Source of the DNA: a virus
IMG/VR virus record: IMGVR_UViG_3300027706_000275
Location: 1-33,597 of that record
DNA length: 33,597 nt
Strand: one strand, 5' to 3'
Within the stretch, counting starts at the first letter, position 1, and each line of letters opens with the position of its first letter. Position numbers and translations under genes: made by a program. The notes beneath the pieces were generated by a model. The model was not told the origin of the DNA. It was given only the letters and a program-made list of their open reading frames with translations, and searched no databases. Of the stretch, positions 5,857 to 30,710 are shown piece by piece.

Positions 5857-7224
5857 ATGAACGCGATGACCGAGCCGCGACGGACAGCGATCGAGGCGGG
5901 GCTGGCGGCGCGGGTCGCGGCGGGCGTGCGCTACATCGTCTCGGGGGTCGCGCCCGCGGATTGGTTCGGGCCGATGCAGCCGCTGCCGCCGATGGCGCCG
6001 CCCGCGATCGCGGGCCGCAGCTTCGACTTCCCGGCCGGCGCCAACCTGCGCCTCCAGCCGCGGCAGGACGAGAGCATCGGCTTCGCCGACCTGCGCGCGC
6101 TGGCGGACGCGCTCGACCTCATCCGGCTGGTCATCGAGACCCGGAAGGATCAGATCGCGAAAATCGACTGGACCATCCGATTGCGCGACAGCAGGCGCGG
6201 CGGCGCCGCCGACCCCCGCCTCAAGGCGGTCGGCGATTTCCTGACATATCCCGACCGCGAGCACGATTTCGAGACCTGGCTGCGCCTCTTGCTGGAGGAC
6301 CTGCTGGTGATCGACGCGCCGACGCTCTATCTGCGGCGCGACCATGCCGGCGCGCTCCATGCGCTCGAGGTGGTGGACGGCGCCACCATCAAGCGCGTGA
6401 TCGACGAGCGCGGCCGCACGCCCATGCCGCCCGACGTCGCCTATCAGCAGGTCCTGAAGGGCATGCCGGCGATCGACTACACCGCGGACGAGCTGATCTA
6501 CCGCCCGCGCAATCCGCGGCCGCACAAGATCTACGGCTACTCGCCGGTCGAGCAGGTCGTGATGACCGTCAACGTGGCGCTCCGCCGCCAGGTGGCGCAG
6601 CTCCAGTACTACACCGAGGGCAACGTGCCCGAGGCGATGATCGGCGTGCCCGAGACCTGGAGCCCCGACCAGATCCGGCAGTTCCAGGAATATTGGGACA
6701 GCCTTCTCGAGGGCAACACCGCCGCGCGGCGTCACGCGAAGTTCGTGCCGGCGGGCATGAAGCCCACCTTCACCCGCGAGCCGATGCTGAAGGACGAGAT
6801 GGACGAGTGGCTGGCGCGCGTGATCTGCTTCGCCTTCTCGGTGGCGCCCACGCCCTTCGTGCGCGACAACAACCGCGCCACCGCCCAGACGACGCGCGCC
6901 GCCGCCATCACCGAGGGCCTGACGCCGCTCTTGCGCTGGGTGAAGCGGCTCATGGACGAGGTGATCGCGCGCCACCTCGGCTGCGCCGACCTCGAGTTCG
7001 CCTGGAACGACGAGAAGGACGACGACCCCGCCGAGCAGGCCCGCATCAACGACACCTACGTCCGCGCCGGCATCAAGTCCGTGGACGAGGTGCGCACCGA
7101 GCTGGGCCTGGCGCCCGTCGGCTTCGGCAACGCGATCTACACGGGTCAGGGCGCCGTGCCGCTCAGGGACGTGGGGAAGGGCGCTGCGGCGCCGGAGCCG
7201 AGCGCAATCCGCGGGGACACGTGA
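5857..7224 (+). CDS. Phage portal protein (HK97/SPP1-like)
   Basis: A 455-residue protein forming the dodecameric ring at the head vertex, through which DNA passes and to which the tail attaches. Family signatures include the N-terminal region with LRLQPRQDESIGFADLR, the wing segment (LIRLVIETRKDQIAKIDW), the stretch YGYSPVEQVVMTVNVALRR, and the crown-side helix FAFSVAPTPFVRDNNRATAQ, all typical of this portal family. Length is normal. The ATG at 5857 has GACGGG just upstream; a second ATG lies at 5866. The order terL, portal, protease, capsid is canonical apart from the methyltransferase insertion. Confidence 0.9.
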   Translation: MNAMTEPRRTAIEAGLAARVAAGVRYIVSGVAPADWFGPMQPLPPMAPPAIAGRSFDFPAGANLRLQPRQDESIGFADLRALADALDLIRLVIETRKDQIAKIDWTIRLRDSRRGGAADPRLKAVGDFLTYPDREHDFETWLRLLLEDLLVIDAPTLYLRRDHAGALHALEVVDGATIKRVIDERGRTPMPPDVAYQQVLKGMPAIDYTADELIYRPRNPRPHKIYGYSPVEQVVMTVNVALRRQVAQLQYYTEGNVPEAMIGVPETWSPDQIRQFQEYWDSLLEGNTAARRHAKFVPAGMKPTFTREPMLKDEMDEWLARVICFAFSVAPTPFVRDNNRATAQTTRAAAITEGLTPLLRWVKRLMDEVIARHLGCADLEFAWNDEKDDDPAEQARINDTYVRAGIKSVDEVRTELGLAPVGFGNAIYTGQGAVPLRDVGKGAAAPEPSAIRGDT

Positions 7225-7255
7225 CGTCAAAGCCACCAACAGAGGACATCCCGAC

Positions 7256-8116
7256 ATGCACGAGATGAAGGTCTATCTCCCGCTCGCCAAGGTCGATCGG
7301 GAGCAGCGGATGGTCTACGGCTATGCGTCCACCGAGGCGCTCGACAGCCAGGGCGAGGTGGTGCGCCGGCAAGCGCTCGCGGCGGCGCTCCCCGACTACA
7401 TGCGCTTCGCCAACATCCGCGAGATGCACCAGCCCTCCGCGGTCGGCGTCGCCAAGGAGGCGGCGATCGACGAGAAGGGGCTCTGGCTCGGCGCCAAGGT
7501 GATCGACGACGAGGCCTGGAAGAAGGTGGTCGAGGGCGTCTACAAGGGCTTCTCGATCGGCGGCTTCGTCACCTCCCGCGATCCCCGCGACCCCACGGTG
7601 ATCACCGGCATCGACCTCGCCGAGATCAGCCTGGTGGACCGGCCCGCCAATCCCGAGGCGACCGTCGAGCTTTTCAAGTCCGCGGCGGCTGCGAGCCTTG
7701 GCAAGGCGGGCGCGCGGCATTCCAAGGCGGATTTCGCGCGGGTCCAGGGCATTCACGACATGGCGGCGGCGCTCGGCGCCCATTGCCCCGGCGCCTCCGC
7801 CGACGATGGTGACGACGGCGACGATGAGCCCGGCGCCGACGAGGGCGAGGCCAAGGAGGCGATCGCCGGCGGGCGCGGAGTGCTGGCGAAGCTCGCTGCC
7901 GCGCGCCGGAAGCTCGCCGAGCTCGAGACCGCGAACTCCGCGCTGGCGCGGCGCATCGCCGAGCTCGAGAAGCGGCCGGAGCCCGGAAAGGTCGTGCTGC
8001 GCACCGTCGACAAGGCCGCGGACTACGCGAGCCGCACGGCGCCCGAGACCTCCGACACGCTCTCGCTCATCCGCCGCGCCTACGAGAACGCGCGGCTCAT
8101 CCGCTTCACCGGCTGA
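7256..8116 (+). CDS. Prohead protease (HK97 U35 / XkdF-like)
   Basis: A 286-residue maturation protease that trims scaffold or capsid protein during head assembly. The N-terminal half has the herpesvirus-assemblin-like fold: GYASTEALDSQGEVV near the start, catalytic His58 in REMHQP, and catalytic Ser100 in YKGFSIGGF, followed by the DLAEISLVDRPANPEA signature. The C-terminal half is acidic and then a coiled coil (LAAARRKLAELETANSALAR), likely the built-in scaffolding part, since no separate scaffold gene is present. It lies 31 bases after portal and is followed by a strong terminator. Confidence 0.88.
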   Translation: MHEMKVYLPLAKVDREQRMVYGYASTEALDSQGEVVRRQALAAALPDYMRFANIREMHQPSAVGVAKEAAIDEKGLWLGAKVIDDEAWKKVVEGVYKGFSIGGFVTSRDPRDPTVITGIDLAEISLVDRPANPEATVELFKSAAAASLGKAGARHSKADFARVQGIHDMAAALGAHCPGASADDGDDGDDEPGADEGEAKEAIAGGRGVLAKLAAARRKLAELETANSALARRIAELEKRPEPGKVVLRTVDKAADYASRTAPETSDTLSLIRRAYENARLIRFTG

Positions 8117-21099: not shown

Positions 21100-22224
21100 A
21101 TGACGCTCAAACGCATGCTCGCGGCGCTCGCCGCAGCCCTCATCACGCTCGCCGCGGCGCTGCTCCTGCTGGTGGCAGGCGAGCGGCAGCCGGCGCTGGC
21201 CCAGGTGACCTGCCCCACGTCGCTGCCGCCCGCCGGCAATTTCACCTCGGCGGGCACGACCCAGGGCCAGTTCAAGACCAATCTCACGAGCCTGGTCGCC
21301 TACCTCACCTGTCTCCTCGGCACGGACGGCACCACGGCGACGGCCAAGAGCGCGCTCGGCCTCGCCACGGTCGCGACCAGCGGCAGCTACACCGACCTCT
21401 CGGGGAAGCCCGGCTCGCTGCCGCCCTCGGGCGCCGCAGGCGGCGACCTCGCGGGCACATATCCGAACCCGACGCTGGCGCCGGGCGGCGGCAGCCTCGC
21501 CTCGCTGCTCCAGGGCCATATCGGCGGCCTCGCGCTCTCGAACGACGGCACCAGCCCGCAGACCGTGATCGACACCTCCGCGGGTGTGGCGACCTCCGAC
21601 GACGCCGGCGCCCTGATGAGGCTCCCGAGTTTCACCAAGAGCACGGCCGCCTGGGCGGCGGGCAGCGGCAACGGCTGCCTCGACGCGGGCACGGTCGCCA
21701 ACTCGACCTGGTACCATCTCTTCGTGATCGAGCGCACCGACACGGGCGTCGTCGACGAGCTCTGCTCCACCTCCGCCACGGCCCCCACGCTCCCCACCCC
21801 CTACACGAAAAAACGCCGCATCGGAAGCTTCAAGACGGACGCGAGCGGGCATATACTCGGGTTTACGCAGTATGGGACGGGCTCTATTCGGCAGTACTTG
21901 TGGGTGAGCGCTCCGCGGGATCAAAGTAGTGCCTCGGTTCCGACGGGAACTCCAACTTTATATTCGCTCGCAGGCCTCCCGATTGGGGTCAAGGTGCGCG
22001 CAATCCTGAACATCACTGTCCCTGGCACACTCGGCGTTATCACCTTTATGGAACCAGATTCGCTGAGCCCATCCGAGGGCAATGCAAGTGTGGTTACATC
22101 TGGACGTGAATGGAATGGCCGCATCGAGTTGCGCACAAATGCGGCCCAGCAAATCGCCACAATTGCTTCTGCAAGCAACATGACATTCAGTGCCTCGACA
22201 ATCGGTTGGTACGACGATATCTAA
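21100..22224 (+). CDS. Tail fibre protein with signal-like N-terminus and exchanged tip
   Basis: A 374-residue protein. The motif GGDLAGTYPNPTLAPGG (about residues 114-130) is common in phage fibre shafts, and Ser/Thr/Gly-rich shaft sequence surrounds it. The N-terminus (MTLKRMLAALAAALITLAAA ... PALAQ) reads like an export signal with an ALAQ cleavage site, which is unusual for a virion protein. From about base 21840 (residue 247 on) GC content and codon use fall sharply, so the C-terminal tip appears to come from another source. Its TAA shares bases with the TAG of the convergent GT4 gene (CTAA, 22221-22224). Confidence 0.7.
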   Translation: MTLKRMLAALAAALITLAAALLLLVAGERQPALAQVTCPTSLPPAGNFTSAGTTQGQFKTNLTSLVAYLTCLLGTDGTTATAKSALGLATVATSGSYTDLSGKPGSLPPSGAAGGDLAGTYPNPTLAPGGGSLASLLQGHIGGLALSNDGTSPQTVIDTSAGVATSDDAGALMRLPSFTKSTAAWAAGSGNGCLDAGTVANSTWYHLFVIERTDTGVVDELCSTSATAPTLPTPYTKKRRIGSFKTDASGHILGFTQYGTGSIRQYLWVSAPRDQSSASVPTGTPTLYSLAGLPIGVKVRAILNITVPGTLGVITFMEPDSLSPSEGNASVVTSGREWNGRIELRTNAAQQIATIASASNMTFSASTIGWYDDI

Positions 22225-23507
22225 CTGTTGAGCGATATTGCTCGTGCATCGCCCATGTCTCCTCGAAGTATTGTCAATAACCTGTCGGCGTATTCGCGCC
22301 AAGTGGACATCGGCCGACGAATCGCATCGGCAGCTAGAGATTCGCGAAGCGCACGGTCAAAGATCATCCGCTCGAGGGCGTTCTTTAGCGCACTAGTGGA
22401 TCGCGTATCTATAGTAAGGCAACCCCCGTCGGTAGCCACCTCAGCCATAGCTCCAAAGTTCGCACAAATGCAGGGCCGAGCAAGCCAAAGACTTTCGACA
22501 ATTGGCAGACCGAATCCCTCTGCAACGGATGGAAATACTGTGAAGTGAGTTCGATGATAACGGTCAATCATATCTGAATCGGAAACATTTCCGGCGAGAT
22601 CGACTCTAGGATTAGCTCGGGCAATAGCTGTCACCTCGTTGTGCAATTGCAAATCGGTGACCCCAACTAATGATAGACGAACATCAACTTTGGGATGCTC
22701 TTCGCAGAAGGCGTTGAAGGCTTCGAGCAGCTTAACCTGATTCTTGCGTGGCTCGATATGACTCACACACATAATGGTAGTGGGGCCTTGCGCAGGTGCG
22801 TCGTATACAGTCTTACGACTACAGCCAAGGAATTCCTGCGCAAGTGGCTGAGGAATTATGCGCGGAAGCACTTTGGCTTCCAGTCCAAGGGTCTCCGAAA
22901 AGTACCGCGCCAAATCCAAACCAGCATCACGTGAAATCGGCAGAATCAGATCCGCTTTCGCTAGTTGTCTGACATAGCGTTCGTGCAATGCCCGGAGTTG
23001 CGGATAACCAGGAACTCTCAGTGGGATCAGATCATAAAATAAGAACGCGATCTTCAGATGCTGCGCTCGTGCGTAATCGGAAAGCATCAGAACTGGATCT
23101 GATTCCCAAGCCTCCTGATGACCACCCCTGATTCGCCAATAGGTTAGTTCGGGAACCAACAGCCATCCCGCTTTCTCTGGCGCGTTAGTCCTCATCCGCG
23201 CCGGCGGAGTCTTTTGAAAAACCGAACAACGTGGGCCGTTCCACCGAGAAAAGTTTCGAAGTTGCCGTCTGGTACACGGCCTCGGACCATGGTCGGCGTC
23301 CGACCATGAGAGATAGGTGACATGTTCGCCTAGTTCCTCGAACCCATGAGCGAGTGAACGGGTTACCCGTTGCACACCAGGATTACGATCGAACTCGCAT
23401 GTGAAATCGATCCAATAGCGGATATCATCGCCAGCGGCCCGCGCTATCCGTCGCCGCAACAGACAGCCTAATTTCCTGGCGATTGTTAGCAAAGGAAGGC
23501 CACGCAC
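22221..23507 (-). CDS. GT4-family glycosyltransferase
   Basis: A 428-residue GT-B retaining glycosyltransferase expected to add a sugar from a nucleotide-sugar donor to a surface glycan in the cytoplasm. The C-terminal donor domain has VSHIEPRKNQVKLLEAF and the E-x7-E pair in SVAEGFGLPIVESLWLARP (E330, E338), plus the basic R254/K255 that contact phosphates. The N-terminal acceptor domain includes FYDLIPLRVPGYP and ILPISRDAGLDL. The start is GTG 23507, and no strong ribosome site is seen. It is last in a minus-strand group, 63 bases after the GT9 gene. Low GC relative to the phage indicates transfer. Confidence 0.85.
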   Translation of the reverse strand: MRGLPLLTIARKLGCLLRRRIARAAGDDIRYWIDFTCEFDRNPGVQRVTRSLAHGFEELGEHVTYLSWSDADHGPRPCTRRQLRNFSRWNGPRCSVFQKTPPARMRTNAPEKAGWLLVPELTYWRIRGGHQEAWESDPVLMLSDYARAQHLKIAFLFYDLIPLRVPGYPQLRALHERYVRQLAKADLILPISRDAGLDLARYFSETLGLEAKVLPRIIPQPLAQEFLGCSRKTVYDAPAQGPTTIMCVSHIEPRKNQVKLLEAFNAFCEEHPKVDVRLSLVGVTDLQLHNEVTAIARANPRVDLAGNVSDSDMIDRYHRTHFTVFPSVAEGFGLPIVESLWLARPCICANFGAMAEVATDGGCLTIDTRSTSALKNALERMIFDRALRESLAADAIRRPMSTWREYADRLLTILRGDMGDARAISLNS

Positions 23508-23570: not shown

Positions 23571-25091
23571 CTAGTCAGTGGGCGCAACATAAGGCGCGCC
23601 GAGGATCTGTGTAGCTCTCGTTAACACGGTATCGACCGAGATAGCCGTCATACAACGATGCTGATGCGGGCACTCATTGATTTTGCTATAGCCACATGGT
23701 GAGCATGGAACGTCAGCGGTTAGCGTCAGAACTCGCTCTTCAGCGCGGGGTGCCCACTCCTCGGGTGAATGGGTACCGGCGAATATCAAAAGAACTCGCG
23801 CGCCACATGCAGCGGCATAATGAGCGATTCCCGAATCACCGCAGATTACCAAAGCCGATCTTTTGAATAATCCGGGCAGCGCAGTCCAGGACGTTTTACC
23901 ACCAAGATTGACTAGGCGACCATCACAAGCTGCCGCACCGGCAATCTTACTTAGCGCCTCGCGCTGATTCTGGGTTCCGAGGAGCACGACGTGTCGCTCT
24001 GTTCGCTCCAGGAGCAACTTTATCAGTCTGGTATAGTTGCTGGGTGGCCAATCCTTGATGGGCGAATTGCTCAGGGGTGATATATAAATACCACCCGATC
24101 TTCGAAGGAGACCACGTTCCTCCTCGGAAAGAGGGTCTACAAAAGAATCGGTTGCCATGAGCCCAATGTGACCGGTGGGGGGGTGAAGCCGTTCGGCAAG
24201 AAGCGAGACCATCAGCGAGGTTAGCTCGGCACGGTGTAAACTGTGCAATCTATGCTTCACCGCGGCACCGCTAGATGCAGAGGGGTTCTCAATGGTCACG
24301 CCAAAGAAACGGAAGGTGCCCGCAAGAGGGCGCCCACGCGCGTAGATACGGAACTCTATAGCCCCGTTCTCATCGTTATTTGAGAATTCCAGAGTGGCGC
24401 AACCAGATCGGAGGTGTCGGCGGCGAAGGCGTAAAGTAGCGATCGGCACCGTACGCTGACCGACGTCAACCACGATGCTGCAAAGTAAACCCAGACCCCA
24501 AAATCCAGGGGCATGGAAATGGAATGTAACACGGTAGATGCCGATCGGAAGCCTAGTATATGGACCAAAAATCGCGCAGTGATCTGTTTTTGAAAAATCA
24601 AGGTCCCAATAAAGAGGAGTGGGTGACAGCACATTTGAAACAAAGTCAGTTGCGGGAAACCCACGCCAAGCGTCTTTATCTACAAGAGGTAAATGATTTA
24701 ATATCTTGAGTGGTAAGGCGAGATTAAGATAGGGAAAATCACAATTCAAACCAATTCCGCACTTCAAATGTGCATCTATATATGAAAGCAAGAATCGAGT
24801 ATCAGAGTCTATACGAAGATCTATAGCGGCATCATATGATCCGTTAGTAACTAGCCGAAACGTGCTTATAGGTTGATATGGAACACCATCCCGGTCGGCA
24901 ACGGTAGGAGGGAAAAAATCGTAAACAAGAACTCTATCGAAGAAGCCGCAGCTTTCTGCAATGCTCCTGTTCCATGATCCACAGACAAGGGAGATCTCGT
25001 CGGTAGGAAAATGGTCGCGTAGCTTTCGCAGCGCGGGGATCGCCATTATGAAGTCACCGAGATGATCGAGCTTAAGAACGATGATCTTCAT
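23571..25091 (-). CDS. GT9-family (heptosyltransferase-like) glycosyltransferase with inserted beta-rich domain
   Basis: About 506 residues from ATG 25091 (TTG 25100 is an alternative). The N-terminal GT9 half starts MKIIVLKLDHLGDFIMAIPA, with the family's GDxxxxxP motif. The donor-binding half has SPLSNSPIKDWP, NLGGKTSWTALPGLFKRSAL and ICGDSGIAHYAAACG, then a cysteine cluster (CSPCGYSKINECPHQHRCM). GT9 enzymes add heptose or related sugars to LPS core. Between the halves, residues about 163-275, lies an extra strand-rich segment (GPYTRLPIGIYRVTF to IEFRIYARGRPLAG) absent from ordinary 330-380-residue heptosyltransferases. Low GC, like GT4. Confidence 0.82.
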   Translation of the reverse strand: MKIIVLKLDHLGDFIMAIPALRKLRDHFPTDEISLVCGSWNRSIAESCGFFDRVLVYDFFPPTVADRDGVPYQPISTFRLVTNGSYDAAIDLRIDSDTRFLLSYIDAHLKCGIGLNCDFPYLNLALPLKILNHLPLVDKDAWRGFPATDFVSNVLSPTPLYWDLDFSKTDHCAIFGPYTRLPIGIYRVTFHFHAPGFWGLGLLCSIVVDVGQRTVPIATLRLRRRHLRSGCATLEFSNNDENGAIEFRIYARGRPLAGTFRFFGVTIENPSASSGAAVKHRLHSLHRAELTSLMVSLLAERLHPPTGHIGLMATDSFVDPLSEEERGLLRRSGGIYISPLSNSPIKDWPPSNYTRLIKLLLERTERHVVLLGTQNQREALSKIAGAAACDGRLVNLGGKTSWTALPGLFKRSALVICGDSGIAHYAAACGARVLLIFAGTHSPEEWAPRAEERVLTLTADVPCSPCGYSKINECPHQHRCMTAISVDTVLTRATQILGAPYVAPTD

Positions 25092-25226
25092 TCGCCGCAA
25101 CCCGAAAAGACGACCGAACTCCCGACGGCGCTAATGGCAGAGAGTCCCCGCAAGATTGACTGTCGGGAGCATCAGAGCATGCTGCCGGTTGGCGCTTCTG
25201 GCTGCCCGCGGTCGAACGTGGCTGAG

Positions 25227-25247
25227 ATTTATAGTGTCACTTGACAC
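25227..25247 (-). promoter_or_regulatory. Possible promoter with palindromic operator for the GT9-GT4 genes
   Basis: On the minus strand, GTGTCA-AG-TGACAC (25247-25234) is a perfect inverted repeat followed directly by a -10-like TATAAAT (25233-25227), about 136 bases before the GT9 start. It also overlaps the stop codon of the upstream membrane-protein gene. No good -35 box is seen, which would suit regulator-dependent expression. Confidence 0.35.
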
Positions 25248-27297
25248 AACCTTCACTCCCGACCGCGTTCGTGCGCGCAATGCCTGCGTCGGTAATTCCG
25301 AGCACTCCCGTACCTGCAAGCATGGCCCGCACCTCGATCCCCTGGACCGGCTCCTCAAGCGTCAGGTCCACTCGTGCGGATTGTGGGGTGGCCGCGTTCG
25401 CCGCGAGTTCCCCCTCATAAAGAACCTCGCGGCCCCAGCCTCGGGTGACCTGCCAGCGGTTGTGGCCGGGGGTGTCGGTGGTGAGGGCGTAGCGGAGGGT
25501 GAGGGTCCAGCGGCCGCGGGGCAGGTCGAAGGCCGAGCTCCAGACCTGCGGCCGGGAGGCGTCCGGCGCGTCCACGCGCACCTCGAGCGGGCCGGCGAGT
25601 GGCGCCAGGCTCTCGTTCTCCACCCGGTGCCCGGCGCTCAGGAACCGGTCGGCGGGGATGCAGATCGCGTCGATGCCCTCGCCCGCCTCGAGGAAGGTGG
25701 CGTAGAGCGAGGGCGAGGTGCGCACCAGCTCGCGCCGAAGCGCCGCGGCGTCGTCGTAGATCCAGATCGCGCTGCCGCCGCACACGAGCGTCCGGTCGGG
25801 CGCGCCGTAGTGGCTCCTGATCGCGGTCTCGTCGAGTCCGGCCATCACGAAGTAGTTGTAAACGGGTATGCGGGCGCCGTCATGGACGTCGTGCGTATAC
25901 CAGAACCGGTCGTTGCTCCACCACACGCCGGCGCCGTCCGGCTCGACCTGGTCGATCTGGAGCCGCCAGTCGCTCGACGCCTCGATGTAGCGCGCATGCC
26001 AGTAGTCGCCGAGCCCGGCCTTGAGGCCCGCGCTCTGCTGCGCCTCGAGGAGACACGCCTCCGCGGGATGATGGAGCGCCAACAGCGCGGGCGCGTGCAG
26101 GCCCCGCGAGGTGTAGGCGGCGCCCAGCATCAGCGCCAGCCCCGCAAGCGCGGTGGAGAGCACGGCGCGGCGCGCCGCTCCCAGCAGCCGCACGAGCCAC
26201 ACCGACGCCCACACGACCGGCCACCAGAGCAGCGGCATCATGTAGCGGAAGTGCCACGTCCCCTCGTAGACCAGCGGCACGGCCGCCAGCGTTGCGAGCA
26301 CGCTGCTTGCCGAGAGCACCCACCAGAACTCCACCGCCTCCCGCGCGCGGTCCTGCCTTGCGCCGCCGATAAGGAGCAGGGGAGAAGCGAGGAGCGCCGC
26401 CAGCGGCAGGGCATAGGCCAGGACCGCCGTCAAAGGTGCCGCCGTCGCGACCGCGACGATGCCGGCCGCGAAGGCGCGCGCGTGGACCGGCACCGCGGTC
26501 CAGTCGATGCCGATGCCGCCGTCGCGCACCAGCAGCAGGTCGAGGCCGCGCGAGGCGGCGGTCCCCAGCAGCACGCAGGCGATGATAGGCATAGCGGCGC
26601 GCAGCGCCAGCTTCCGCCGCAGGACGGCAAAGGCGATTGCCGCGGTGATCGGCCCGACGCAGGAGATGACGAACAGCAGGTCCGACAGCACGCCCCCCGT
26701 CACCAGCAGGAACAGTGCGACGAGCTTCGCCCGCGCCGGCCGCAGGAGCCAGCTCCGGGCGACGCCCAGCGCGGCGAGCGCCAGGATGAACGGCCCGCCG
26801 TGATTGTTGGGCAGGAAGATGTGCATGTGCTCCGACGTCGCCGTGATCGGCAGCTCCAGCAGCAGCGCCAGCAGCGTCAGCAGCAGAAACGCCTGTGCCG
26901 CGGCGAGCCAGCCGCAGCGCGCGATCTCCCGGACGATGACTCCGGCCGCCGCCGACAGGCCGAGCAGCGAGAGCGCGCCGTAGGCGAGCGAGGCCATGCG
27001 CCAGCTCCCCGTGGCGAGCTGAACCGCCGCGTAGACGGCGATGTCCGGAAAAATGCTCGGCACGCGCGACATGGAGAAGCCCTCGCGCGCGTAGTCGTGC
27101 GCCGAGTAGTCCCAGACCGTGAGCGCGAGATGGAGCGTGTCGGCGTTGATGGCAAAACCGAGGAACGACGAGCTCTCGAATATCACGAGGCAGCCGATGA
27201 GCGCGGCCGCCAGCAAAGCCCCGGCGCCGACGAGCCAGCCGAGCGCCTTCGTCGCTCGACGCGAGCCCGAGCCGTGCGATGCCGCGGCAGTCGTCAC
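25237..27297 (-). CDS. Polytopic membrane protein 1, GT-C-like, with C-terminal beta domain
   Basis: A 686-residue protein from GTG 27297, chosen because GAGGG precedes it and the start MTTAAASHG mirrors MTIAAISQP of the paralogue. About ten hydrophobic segments fill residues 20-430. The first extracytoplasmic loop carries an acidic motif (INADTLHLALTVWDYSAHDY), as in GT-C lipid-linked glycosyltransferases. A soluble part follows (DYWHARYIEASSDWRLQIDQ), then a C-terminal strand-rich domain (FDLPRGRWTLTLRYAL to QGIEVRAMLAGTG). It probably transfers or translocates a sugar at the inner membrane; substrate unknown. High GC, unlike GT4 and GT9. Confidence 0.6.
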   Translation of the reverse strand: MTTAAASHGSGSRRATKALGWLVGAGALLAAALIGCLVIFESSSFLGFAINADTLHLALTVWDYSAHDYAREGFSMSRVPSIFPDIAVYAAVQLATGSWRMASLAYGALSLLGLSAAAGVIVREIARCGWLAAAQAFLLLTLLALLLELPITATSEHMHIFLPNNHGGPFILALAALGVARSWLLRPARAKLVALFLLVTGGVLSDLLFVISCVGPITAAIAFAVLRRKLALRAAMPIIACVLLGTAASRGLDLLLVRDGGIGIDWTAVPVHARAFAAGIVAVATAAPLTAVLAYALPLAALLASPLLLIGGARQDRAREAVEFWWVLSASSVLATLAAVPLVYEGTWHFRYMMPLLWWPVVWASVWLVRLLGAARRAVLSTALAGLALMLGAAYTSRGLHAPALLALHHPAEACLLEAQQSAGLKAGLGDYWHARYIEASSDWRLQIDQVEPDGAGVWWSNDRFWYTHDVHDGARIPVYNYFVMAGLDETAIRSHYGAPDRTLVCGGSAIWIYDDAAALRRELVRTSPSLYATFLEAGEGIDAICIPADRFLSAGHRVENESLAPLAGPLEVRVDAPDASRPQVWSSAFDLPRGRWTLTLRYALTTDTPGHNRWQVTRGWGREVLYEGELAANAATPQSARVDLTLEEPVQGIEVRAMLAGTGVLGITDAGIARTNAVGSEGCVK

Positions 27298-27307
27298 GAC
27301 GGCGCCC

Positions 27308-29440
27308 TCAGTTGGCCGCGGAGTCGCTCGAGGCCGCGCCATCCCCAGGACACGGCGCGGGATCAATGCCGGCGCCGACGCGGGTGATGCTGGCGCCGGA
27401 GACGGCGATCCCGCCGCGCCCCGCGAGATAGCTGCGGATCTCGAGGCGCTCCGCGGGCGCGGCCAGGTCGACCTCGGCCTCGACGGTGCGAAGCTCTCCG
27501 CCGGTGGGCGGCAGGCTCCCTTCATAATAAGTGTCGGGCCAGCCGGCGGTGATCTGCCAGCTGTCGCGTCCCGGCGCATCGGTGGCGAGGCTGTAGTCGA
27601 GCGCGATGCGCCACCGTCCCGCCGGCAGGGTGAAGTAGGGGCCCCAGATGCGCGGCACCCAGCCGTTCGGCGTCTCCGCGCGCGCCTCGATCGGGCCCGT
27701 CCAGGGCGCGCGGCGGTCCGCCTCGCTCGACCGGGCGGCGCTGAAGAAGCGATCGGCGGCGATGCAGATCCGGTCGATCCCCTCGCCCGATTCCAGGAAG
27801 GTCGCGTAAAGCGGCGGCGAGCTCTGGACGAGCGCGCTGCGAAACGCCGCGGTGTCGTCGTAGATCCAGACGGCCGTGCCGCCGCAGTCGAGCGTCCGGT
27901 CGGGCGCGCCGAAATGCCGCCGGATGGCGCCCTCGTCGATGTCGGCCATCACGATGTAGTTGTAGACCGGCGGCCGAGGCGAAGCCTGCGGCTCGCCCGG
28001 CGGCCGAGGCGAAGCCGCGTCGGCGGTCATGTCGTGCGTGCTCCAGAAGCGGTCGCCGTCGAAATAGCTGCCGGCGCCGTCGCTCTCGATCTGCTCGATC
28101 TGCAGGCGCCAGTCGCTCGACGCCTTGAGATAGCGCGCGTGCCAGTAGTCGGCGAGGCCCGCCTTCAGCCCGGCGGTGCGCTGGCCCTCGAGGAGACAGG
28201 CCTCCAGCGGGTGGTGCAGCCGCAGGATCGCGGGCGCGTGCGGGCCCGGCCACAGGTAGAAGACGGCGAGCCCCGACGAGAGCCCGCCGAGACCCGCGGA
28301 GATCGCCCACCGCGCCTTGCCGGCGAGCCGCTGCACCAGGAGCGCGGACGCGAACACGACCGGCCACCACTGCAGCGGCATGGTGTAGCGGTACTGCGAG
28401 GTGTCCTCGTAATAGACCGCGGTCTGCACGGCGACCAGGGCCAGGCTCGTGGCGGCCAGCGTCCACCAGAGCCCCGACGGGTCGGCGGTCTCCGCTGGCT
28501 GGGCGCGATCCCGGCGGAGCCGCGGATATAAGAGGAAGAGCGCGAGCGGGAGACCGAACCCCAGCAGTACCGTGACCGGCGCCGCGGCGGCGAGGACGCC
28601 GGGGCTCAGGATGAAGTCCCGGACGTGCGCGGGCACGCCGAGCCATTCGATCGGGGGGACGCCCTCGCGGTTCAGGAACAGGTCCAGCACCCGGCCCACG
28701 GCGACGCCGGCGAGGACGGCCGCGATGACGGCTGTCGCGCTCGCGCGGAGGAGCGTGCCGCGGCGCCAGCGATAGGCCGCGACGCCCAGCACCGGCGCCG
28801 TGAAGGAAAGCAGGAAGAGCGGATCCGAGATGGTTCCCGCGGCGGTGAGGGCCGCGAGCACGAGCGACCGCCGGAGCGTCCCGCGCTCCATCTGCGCGCA
28901 GGCGACGCAGAGCGCGGCGAAGGCGAGCGCGAGCGGTCCGCCGTGGCCGTTGGGCACGAACACCTCGAGACGCCGCGAGGCGATGGTCACGGGCAGCTCG
29001 AGGAACAGCAGGGGCAGCGCGACCACCAGGAAGGCGCGCGTGCCCAGGCGCCAGCCGCAGCGCGTCAGCCTGTCGAGGATCCACCCGGCCGCGATCGCAA
29101 GCCCGAGCAGCGTCGAGATCCCGAACGCGAGAAACGCAAAGCGCCAGCTTCCCGTCAGCAGCTGCGCGCCGCCGAAGATCGCGAGGTCGGGGAAGAGGCT
29201 GGGCACGCGCGAGAACTGCATGCCCTGCCACGCGTAGTCGTGGGTCGAGAGGTCCCAGGTCTCCAGCGCCAGCTGCAGGCTGTCGGCGTGCACATAGCCC
29301 AGGAAGGACGGGCTGTCGAAGATCACCAGCGAGGCGATGAGGACGGCGCCCCAGCTCAGCGGATCCACCCACGACGGCGCGCCGGACCAGCTTTGGGTGC
29401 GCGGCGGCCGCTCGGGCTGCGAGATGGCGGCGATCGTCAT
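27308..29440 (-). CDS. Polytopic membrane protein 2, paralogue of protein 1
   Basis: A 710-residue protein from ATG 29440 (the frame is open from 29569). It shares with its neighbour VHADSLQLALETWDLSTHDY, QFSRVPSLFPDLAIFGGAQL, VFVPNGHGGPLALAFAAL, YTMPLQWWPVVFASALLVQR, DYWHARYLKASSDWRLQIEQ and the C-terminal beta domain (FTLPAGRWRIALDYSLATD to ERLEIRSYLAGRG). A 14-residue proline-rich insert (SPRPPGEPQASPRPP region) is encoded by a 20-bp direct repeat and is absent from protein 1. Its stop is ten bases from the paralogue's start, so they form one operon. It is the first gene of the minus-strand block; no clear promoter is visible in 29441-29618. Confidence 0.6.
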   Translation of the reverse strand: MTIAAISQPERPPRTQSWSGAPSWVDPLSWGAVLIASLVIFDSPSFLGYVHADSLQLALETWDLSTHDYAWQGMQFSRVPSLFPDLAIFGGAQLLTGSWRFAFLAFGISTLLGLAIAAGWILDRLTRCGWRLGTRAFLVVALPLLFLELPVTIASRRLEVFVPNGHGGPLALAFAALCVACAQMERGTLRRSLVLAALTAAGTISDPLFLLSFTAPVLGVAAYRWRRGTLLRASATAVIAAVLAGVAVGRVLDLFLNREGVPPIEWLGVPAHVRDFILSPGVLAAAAPVTVLLGFGLPLALFLLYPRLRRDRAQPAETADPSGLWWTLAATSLALVAVQTAVYYEDTSQYRYTMPLQWWPVVFASALLVQRLAGKARWAISAGLGGLSSGLAVFYLWPGPHAPAILRLHHPLEACLLEGQRTAGLKAGLADYWHARYLKASSDWRLQIEQIESDGAGSYFDGDRFWSTHDMTADAASPRPPGEPQASPRPPVYNYIVMADIDEGAIRRHFGAPDRTLDCGGTAVWIYDDTAAFRSALVQSSPPLYATFLESGEGIDRICIAADRFFSAARSSEADRRAPWTGPIEARAETPNGWVPRIWGPYFTLPAGRWRIALDYSLATDAPGRDSWQITAGWPDTYYEGSLPPTGGELRTVEAEVDLAAPAERLEIRSYLAGRGGIAVSGASITRVGAGIDPAPCPGDGAASSDSAAN
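27967..28016. repeat. 20-bp direct repeat inside membrane protein 2
   Basis: CCGGCGGCCGAGGCGAAGCC occurs at 27967-27986 and 27997-28016, exactly 30 bases apart, so both copies are read in the same frame and give the repeated SPRPP segment. The paralogue lacks the insert. Confidence 0.85.
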
Positions 29441-29618: not shown

Positions 29619-30710
29619 ATGCCGTTCCAGGCCACCAACATGACGACGCAGACGGGCTCGGTCTACAAATCGGCGATCGATGCCGACACCGCGGCGCTGC
29701 AGGGCTCTTGGGGCAAGCGCCGCAACATCAACGGCGACGGGCAGGTGAACCAGCTCGTCTCCGCCGTCTCGCTCTCGGGCTCCTGGCAGCACATCCTCGA
29801 TCTCTGGGAAGCGCAGTCCTACACGGCCGCCAATTCCTCGGGGAGCTTCGGCCAGATCGCCGACACGAATTTCCCGGCGCAGGTCGCGATCGGCACCGCC
29901 AATCTCGGCACCACCGGCGCGGTCACCGTGGCGCTCCGCACCAAAATGGAAAGCCGCAACGTCCGCGACCTGCTCGCCGCGCCGTTCCAGTACGGCACGC
30001 CCGCGCATCCCTTCGCCGCACTGGGCCTGCTCGCCTTCCAGGACACCGGCGCCGCGATCAGCGTCACGCCGATCCTCCGCTCGGCGGACGCGGCCGATAA
30101 TTTCAGCACCATGTCGAACGCGCTGACGGGTGCCGCGCAGAGCCTGCCCTCGGGCGCGGTGACGCAGCTCTGGTGGGACGGCGCCGGCAACGCCTTCCAG
30201 CTCGACACGCTCGCCAATGCGCAAAAGGGGCTCTGCCTGGAGCTGCAATTCGCCCTGCCGTCGGGCCTCTCCGCGAGGAACCTGCGGATCGGCGACGTGC
30301 AGCTCGAGGGCGGCCAGGTCGCGAGCTTCTACGGCCGCTCTCCCTTCGGCGACGAACTCGAGCGCGCGCAGCGCTACTACGCGAAGACGTTTCCGCTGAC
30401 GACCGCGCCCGCGCAGAACGCGGGAACATCGGGCGCGCTGGTGGCGACGCAGGGTGTCGGCGCCGCGACCGCGCAGAAGGGCGTCTTCTGGAGTTTCCCG
30501 ACCCGCATGATCAAGGCGCCGGGCCTGACGCTCTTCAATCCGAGCGCCGCCAACGCGCAGGTCCGCAACCTCGACACCAACAGCGACTGCTCCGCGAGCG
30601 TTGCCGACCTCGTGAGCGAGTGGGGCGCCTCCTTCAACATGACCACGCCCGCCGGCAGCGCGGCCGGCCAGCGCCTCGCCGTGCAGCTGGTGGCGGACGC
30701 AAGGCTCTGA
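29619..30710 (+). CDS. Second tail fibre / tip protein
   Basis: A 363-residue protein beginning MPFQATNMTTQTGSVYKSAI, with a Ser/Ala/Gly-rich body. The segment LRIGDVQLEGGQVASFYGRS, followed by FGDELERAQRYYAKTF, is the C-terminal block (QLE-G-xA-xF-RxxxxELxxxxRYY) found in many fibre and virion surface proteins, so this is likely a receptor- or glycan-binding fibre. It has a strong GAGAGGAG ribosome site and high GC. It restarts the plus-strand order after the minus-strand glycosylation block. Confidence 0.78.
   Translation: MPFQATNMTTQTGSVYKSAIDADTAALQGSWGKRRNINGDGQVNQLVSAVSLSGSWQHILDLWEAQSYTAANSSGSFGQIADTNFPAQVAIGTANLGTTGAVTVALRTKMESRNVRDLLAAPFQYGTPAHPFAALGLLAFQDTGAAISVTPILRSADAADNFSTMSNALTGAAQSLPSGAVTQLWWDGAGNAFQLDTLANAQKGLCLELQFALPSGLSARNLRIGDVQLEGGQVASFYGRSPFGDELERAQRYYAKTFPLTTAPAQNAGTSGALVATQGVGAATAQKGVFWSFPTRMIKAPGLTLFNPSAANAQVRNLDTNSDCSASVADLVSEWGASFNMTTPAGSAAGQRLAVQLVADARL

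Follow-up and report, generated by a model that had tools for sequence, protein, structure and literature searches.

Results and Discussion

The cassette and its shared module

The DNA analysed here, referred to as the window, is the 33.6-kb virus record IMGVR_UViG_3300027706_000275 of IMG/VR (33,597 nucleotides), possibly a fragment of a genome. Its minus strand carries a cassette of four genes in the order GT4, GT9, MP1 and MP2, encoding two glycosyltransferases (GT) of families GT4 and GT9 and two membrane proteins (MP), with tail fibre genes of the plus strand on both sides (Table 1). A first-pass annotation had noticed that a stretch of roughly 100 residues within GT9 resembles the C-termini of both membrane proteins. 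The segments are indeed located at these places, and profile comparison shows that GT9, MP1 and MP2 have a module of about 105 residues in common, which on the sequence level makes the three segments homologous. The GT4 protein gives no match to the module profile, in line with the earlier count of three module-bearing proteins out of four.

The similarity is not easily seen in single sequences. Visual inspection reveals two short motifs, and a pairwise BLASTP search with GT9 gave an E value of 0.017 over 27 residues against MP2 and nothing relevant against MP1, a marginal result that is insufficient to establish the sharing of the module. Comparison of alignments using hhalign gave E 6.5e-6 for two GT9 rows against four MP rows, E 1.8e-10 with a probability of 97% for 16 GT9-type rows against the same four MP rows, and E 1.6e-12 for the 16 GT9-type rows against six rows of other types, a significant similarity as the first-pass annotation had anticipated. 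A hidden Markov model (HMM) built from the GT9-type rows alone found the homologue of the membrane proteins from Rhizobium jaguaris (24% identity; tail FGPYIHLDKGHY...IEFRGYYGGTG) with E 2.4e-6 and MP2 with E 0.009, both exceeding all 2000 shuffled C-termini, and by the same HMM MP1 alone was not distinguishable from these 2000. The module of MP1 is without the GPY motif and is linked to the family via MP2 and via the related phage record L005 (related loci and genomes are cited as L and G numbers). As MP1 and MP2 are paralogues, showing 48% identity over 666 amino acids with the module included, its presence in both counts as one event and not as two independent ones. Across about 72 modules the signature consists of G-P-Y, L..G.Y, D-V/I, F and E-x-R, with the arginine present in 69 of 72, and the full module alignment is too diverged to serve in a pattern scan.

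Table 1: Features of the cassette and its flanks in the window.
Feature	Position	Strand	Evidence or remark
GT4 glycosyltransferase, module-free	22221..23507	-	PF00534 E 9.7e-20; PF20706 GT4-conflict 27.2 bits; no module-profile match
GT9 (heptosyltransferase-like), 506 aa, P0001	23571..25091	-	PF01075 E 5.7e-19, C-terminal half
GT9 module core, P0001 residues 173-269	24285..24575	-	profile match to MP modules; AlphaFold2 model
Modelled GT9 region, P0001 residues 150-275	24267..24644	-	AlphaFold2
Whole GT9 insertion, residues 129-282	24246..24707	-	alignment against module-less GT9s; between the strand PYLNLALP and the helix LHxxE
MP1, paralogue of MP2	25237..27342	-	start ATG 27342 or GTG near 27297
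MP1 C-terminal module, residues 660-772 of longest open reading frame (ORF), diverged, GPY lost	25264..25602	-	MP1-MP2 identity includes the module
MP2 membrane protein, P0003, probable GT-C type	27308..29440	-	likely start 29440; longest ORF to 29569
MP2 C-terminal module, P0003 ORF residues 621-733	27371..27709	-	profile match; AlphaFold2 model
Tail fibre gene flanking the cassette	21100..22224	+	phrog_19294 E 1.8e-4
Tail fibre gene, other flank	29619..30710	+	phrog_4492 E 2.1e-18

Predicted fold of the module

Structure prediction with AlphaFold2 gave a beta-sandwich of eight strands for GT9 residues 150-275 (pLDDT 77, pTM 0.74) and one of nine strands for the MP2 tail (pLDDT 88, pTM 0.80), so that the GT9 and MP2 segments come out as similar folds, again as the first-pass annotation would have it. 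The two model alignments share no modules, since one (A12) holds only the type inserted in GT9 and the other (A13) holds none of that type, its row from L023 being taken from the C-terminus of a GT4-GT9 fusion. The models were compared via shared solved matches and strand order and not by direct superposition. With the porphyran-binding carbohydrate-binding module (CBM) 8xmz VIA-align gave Z 10.4 (root-mean-square deviation (rmsd) 2.5, 107 residues aligned) for the GT9 module and Z 11.0 (2.1, 99) for the MP2 module, and with the C-terminal domain of the arabinanase 8hhv Z 10.0 (2.6, 114) and 11.2 (2.0, 105), respectively. Further solved matches belong to CBM families 4, 6, 15, 16, 35, 61 and 86 (Z about 9–11, rmsd 2–3.5 Å), and the best matches of both models are mainly CBMs. 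The module is thus predicted to adopt a CBM-like beta-sandwich (jelly-roll), and this shared fold alone is not proof of sugar binding.

The GT9 enzyme and the site of the insertion

GT9 scores 68.8 bits against PF01075, the C-terminal donor domain of ADP-heptose type (cut-off 22). Its residues D13, K346 and D419 align with D13, K192 and D261 of WaaC, the catalytic residues of that enzyme (PMC5713226), and H286 aligns with WaaC H139. The equivalog cut-offs of NCBIfam are missed (TIGR02195, 66.8 vs 134.6 bits; TIGR02193, 47.9 vs 185.3 bits), and therefore we regard the enzyme as a GT9 member and do not assign it as WaaC or WaaF. From an alignment of eight insert-bearing and ten insert-free GT9 sequences the insertion sits after the strand PYL(N/D)IALP and before the helix LHxxE, and with WaaC and WaaF included it maps between R120 and H139 of E. 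coli WaaC. In GT-B enzymes the N-terminal domain binds the acceptor, and WaaC R120, H139 and R143 have been suggested as residues of the Kdo2-lipid A site (PMC5713226). As the insertion falls between two of these residues, the module would stand beside the proposed acceptor site of GT9.

In ten related loci from Sphingomonas and others (L009–L013, L015, L016 and L018–L020) two genes take the place of the single GT9 gene, with the break directly behind the module. The first gene combines a methyltransferase-like start with the GT9 N-domain and the module and stops shortly behind the LHQSE-type helix; the second encodes the GT9 donor domain, with PF01075 found in all three proteins tested. In 10/10 loci the second gene has a start codon one base ahead of the stop of the first gene, in an ATGA or GTGA overlap, for example L013:5386-6897 and 6894-7448. 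Because this overlap is present in all ten, we consider translationally coupled gene fission far more probable than a sequencing error. Split GT-B enzymes exist, as in the case of Alg13/Alg14, and we know of no split GT9.

The membrane proteins

MP1 and MP2 possess 9–11 transmembrane (TM) helices by hydropathy, invariant aspartates in the stretch after TM1 (positions 54, 64 and 86 in L005 numbering) and a soluble C-terminal part of about 300 residues with the module at its end. GT-C enzymes have 7–13 TM helices and a conserved acidic residue in the loop behind TM1. From the architecture of MP1 and MP2 we infer that they are probable GT-C type enzymes with a C-terminal module that is probably periplasmic. 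Neither protein has a match in Pfam, PHROGs or NCBIfam, and a scan of genome contigs with the MP alignment found no relative. Among the homologues from Acetobacteraceae, that of G511 carries the full module and others show a diverged or missing tail. The Rhizobium jaguaris homologue is encoded in a glycan cluster on a 2.6-Mb plasmid (L002:1306-12434) together with a GtrB-like GT2, an acyltransferase and GT4 fusions.

The MP gene is present in two copies in the window (25237-29440) and in one copy in L005 (5070-7163); the longest ORF of MP1 starts at 27579 and overlaps MP2. The L005 protein is nearer to MP1 (66%) than to MP2 (55%), which means that the duplication predates the split of the two phages or that MP2 was acquired separately.

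Family and distribution of the module

No credible match in Pfam, NCBIfam or PHROGs was obtained for any module member searched, no PDB chain matches the module by sequence, and the open-access literature searched names no family for the domain, with CAZy and subscription papers lying outside the search. This agrees with the earlier statement that no named family is known for it. The Pfam candidates DUF5987 and Big_2 (E 0.02 or worse) are below cut-off and not common to the members, and the PDB sequence matches, none better than E 0.0094, are partial or of the kind expected by chance. A match to the C-terminal domain of GH98 (E 0.4) is suggestive at most.

Scanning genome contigs with the GT9 alignment gave 80 loci, about 15 with the module and most without the insertion. 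By profile search the module is present in 63 of 249 Acetobacteraceae genomes, in 6 of 198 genomes from the order of the Sphingomonas genome G003 and in 4 of 299 phylum-wide genomes, G003 itself among them. The set of 249 is the family of G004, a Rhodospirillales metagenome-assembled genome (MAG), and its Acetobacteraceae label is taken from other loci. A single match was found in 36 of the 63 positive genomes, a count to be read with the fact that many genomes are incomplete MAGs and that a limited number of candidates was scored in each.

The search for the domain on other glycosyltransferases, which the first-pass annotation had suggested, found it on GT4, GT9 and GT32-like enzymes. According to Pfam the partner domains are class I and FkbM methyltransferases, GT4, GT9, Gly_transf_sug (GT32-like) and polysaccharide pyruvyl transferase. 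In 64 proteins the module is C-terminal in 39, internal in 10, tandem in nine and N-terminal in four. It is thus a discrete domain, appended or inserted and missing from related GT9s. Several copies can occur close together, with five at 184–251 kb of one contig in G003 and tandem copies in G406. GT32-like proteins (DXD sugar-binding region) with three tandem modules, adjoining another protein that has two, are encoded in L146:8796-10823 (G406) and L117, and in Sphingomonas a methyltransferase lies between two modules, one on each side (L092:1411-2805 and L147:13367-14761). A module-bearing type of about 600 residues recurs in L104, L110, L113, L116 and L121; the N-terminal 490 residues of the L104 protein, the one of these five that was tested, have no Pfam match.

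Composition of the cassette and a second phage

The GT4 and GT9 genes have a G+C content of about 52% (about 49% at third codon positions), against about 70% and 90% in the MP genes and the phage. As the G+C content differs in this way, the cassette was probably assembled from two sources. The same two-part composition is found in L005, a second phage record with the same backbone and the same cassette but only one MP. Between the two phages the flanking and tail proteins are 76–89% identical and the cassette proteins 51–66%, as would be expected for a diversifying surface-glycan cassette. Scans of virus records found the cassette in these two only; scans of viral contigs using single window proteins gave no match, and the phage records searched contained no relative of the GT9 enzyme or MP2. 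At 27.2 bits the GT4 protein lies above the Pfam threshold of 26 bits for PF20706 (GT4-conflict), a family described from conflict systems. PADLOC assigned none of the cassette genes to a defence family.

Proposed function of the module

The reading that we consider fairly probable is that the module is an unnamed CBM-like domain which keeps the acceptor or nascent glycan in place for enzymes that assemble surface polysaccharides, and that the phage cassette most likely alters a surface glycan of the host. In GT9 the module in the acceptor loop of the N-domain would hold the growing oligosaccharide by the active site on the cytoplasmic side. MP1 and MP2, as GT-C-like enzymes using lipid-linked sugar donors, would hold the polysaccharide under decoration with their C-terminal module in the periplasm. 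GT4 and GT9 would then add sugars on the cytoplasmic side and MP1 and MP2 would decorate the glycan outside, and the modified host surface might result in lysogenic conversion and masking of the receptor.

Several points weigh against this reading. Both model alignments are shallow (16 and 6 rows), and the fold matches also include GOLD (Sec14-like), MAM, Cry-toxin and tail-fibre domains. The beta-sandwich fold is also used for protein and lipid binding. The most conserved residues (GPY, G.Y, ExR) look structural, and no ligand site was recognised. For the membrane proteins no solved GT-C in the PDB matches by sequence, and their topology comes from hydropathy only, with the charge rule clear for MP1 only. 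Finally, a CBM tail can be dispensable: ORF12 (GT136) from Citrobacter youngae O1, a GT-C enzyme whose C-terminal CBM binds the unmodified acceptor O-polysaccharide, is still active after deletion of its CBM (PMC11127046).

The first-pass annotation had left the choice between a carbohydrate-binding and a docking domain that assembles the pathway. In the latter case the modules would bind one another or a common scaffold, and it would fit that more than one enzyme of the cassette carries the module and that module-bearing genes lie near one another in single genomes (G003, G406); beta-sandwich domains also mediate protein contacts. However, in 36 of the 63 Acetobacteraceae genomes with the module a single match leaves no homotypic partner, as far as incomplete MAGs and the limited candidates scored allow, the module is present on cytoplasmic enzymes as well as on a probably periplasmic tail, the GT4 of the cassette is without it, and the best fold matches are sugar-binding. 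Because of the site in the acceptor loop, the probable occurrence on both sides of the membrane, the single-match genomes and the precedent of a CBM in a GT-C enzyme, we infer glycan binding, which the predicted CBM-like folds also favour, and the docking half of the earlier proposal is less supported; nothing speaks directly for a pathway assembled through docking of proteins, which appears unlikely. We give still less weight to a structural or membrane- and lipid-contacting role, in which the module would hold the enzymes at the membrane interface without recognising sugars. The GOLD/Sec14-like and MAM domains among the fold matches and the fact that GT9 acceptors are lipid-linked make such a role conceivable, but GOLD domains are a minority of the matches, and soluble methyltransferase or pyruvyl-transferase domains are among those joined to the module. 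That unrelated segments look alike by coincidence of short beta-strand patterns, for which only the poor pairwise BLAST results speak, is very improbable and was rejected, as it is contradicted by profile E values of 1e-10 to 1e-12 from separate alignments, by predicted folds that resemble each other and share their best solved matches and by a signature that recurs on dozens of further enzymes, with few matches in 299 phylum-wide genomes.

It might also be that the module is a CBM but the cassette glycosylates a structural product of the phage or is a transient piece of host DNA that has no role. This would agree with its place between tail fibre genes of the opposite strand, with its presence in only two virus records and with the G+C content of about 52% in the GT genes compared to about 70% in the MP genes and the phage. 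We regard it as rather unlikely, since both phages have retained the cassette, its frames are open and its catalytic residues conserved, and GT-C enzymes act outside the cytoplasm on lipid-linked or polymerised glycans (PMC11127046). Taking the glycan-holding reading further, we tentatively suggest, as a possibility with the odds against it, that the module is a common address label which brings varied enzymes of Acetobacteraceae, Sphingomonas-like bacteria and their phages together on one nascent or lipid-linked glycan, at either face of the membrane. Such scaffolding by the substrate would use a domain that can be placed inside a GT-B acceptor loop or at the split into two coupled genes.

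Comparison with known systems

The cassette is similar to the Gtr serotype-conversion cassettes of phages (GtrA, GtrB and a GT-C of Gtr type) in combining phage-borne glycosylation genes with a polytopic, probably GT-C, enzyme, but it differs by the additional GT9 and GT4 and by two GT-C-like paralogues. Library scans recognised no GtrA or GtrB among the four cassette proteins, and no search was aimed at gtrA or gtrB elsewhere in the phage. With WaaC and WaaF of E. coli the enzyme shares the GT9 family and the residues D13, K192, D261 and H139 (WaaC numbering), whereas the insertion of about 150 residues in the acceptor loop is a difference to both.

CBMs are well known on polysaccharide-degrading enzymes and on a few exporting or decorating ones, and those of the numbered families listed above mostly occur on secreted hydrolases. 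The module resembles these families and 8xmz in its predicted fold, but no sequence relation to them is detectable and it is located on biosynthetic enzymes. That one unnamed family of CBM-like modules occurs on GT9, GT4, GT32-like, pyruvyl-transferase, methyltransferase and probable GT-C proteins suggests a general means to keep biosynthetic enzymes on their acceptor chain. With its signature it might be possible to annotate many hypothetical proteins in Acetobacteraceae, and as a module of about 105 residues can be expressed alone, its ligand, the identity of the host glycan and the change made by the phage are directly testable.

In O-antigen export CBMs are found in Wzt of ABC transporters, and one has been predicted in the terminator ORF6 of Klebsiella pneumoniae O7 (PMC11231755). 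A role in surface-polysaccharide assembly on the cytoplasmic side would be common to these and the present module, which in contrast matches no Pfam family and sits on other enzymes. In architecture there is a likeness to ORF12, EmbC and AftD, where a beta-sandwich CBM is located at the C-terminus of a polytopic GT-C enzyme, although their CBM is described as an Ig-like fold, a comparison made by description and not by sequence (PMC11127046). Different from these three, the module described here is also present on cytoplasmic GT9, GT4 and methyltransferase enzymes and in phage.

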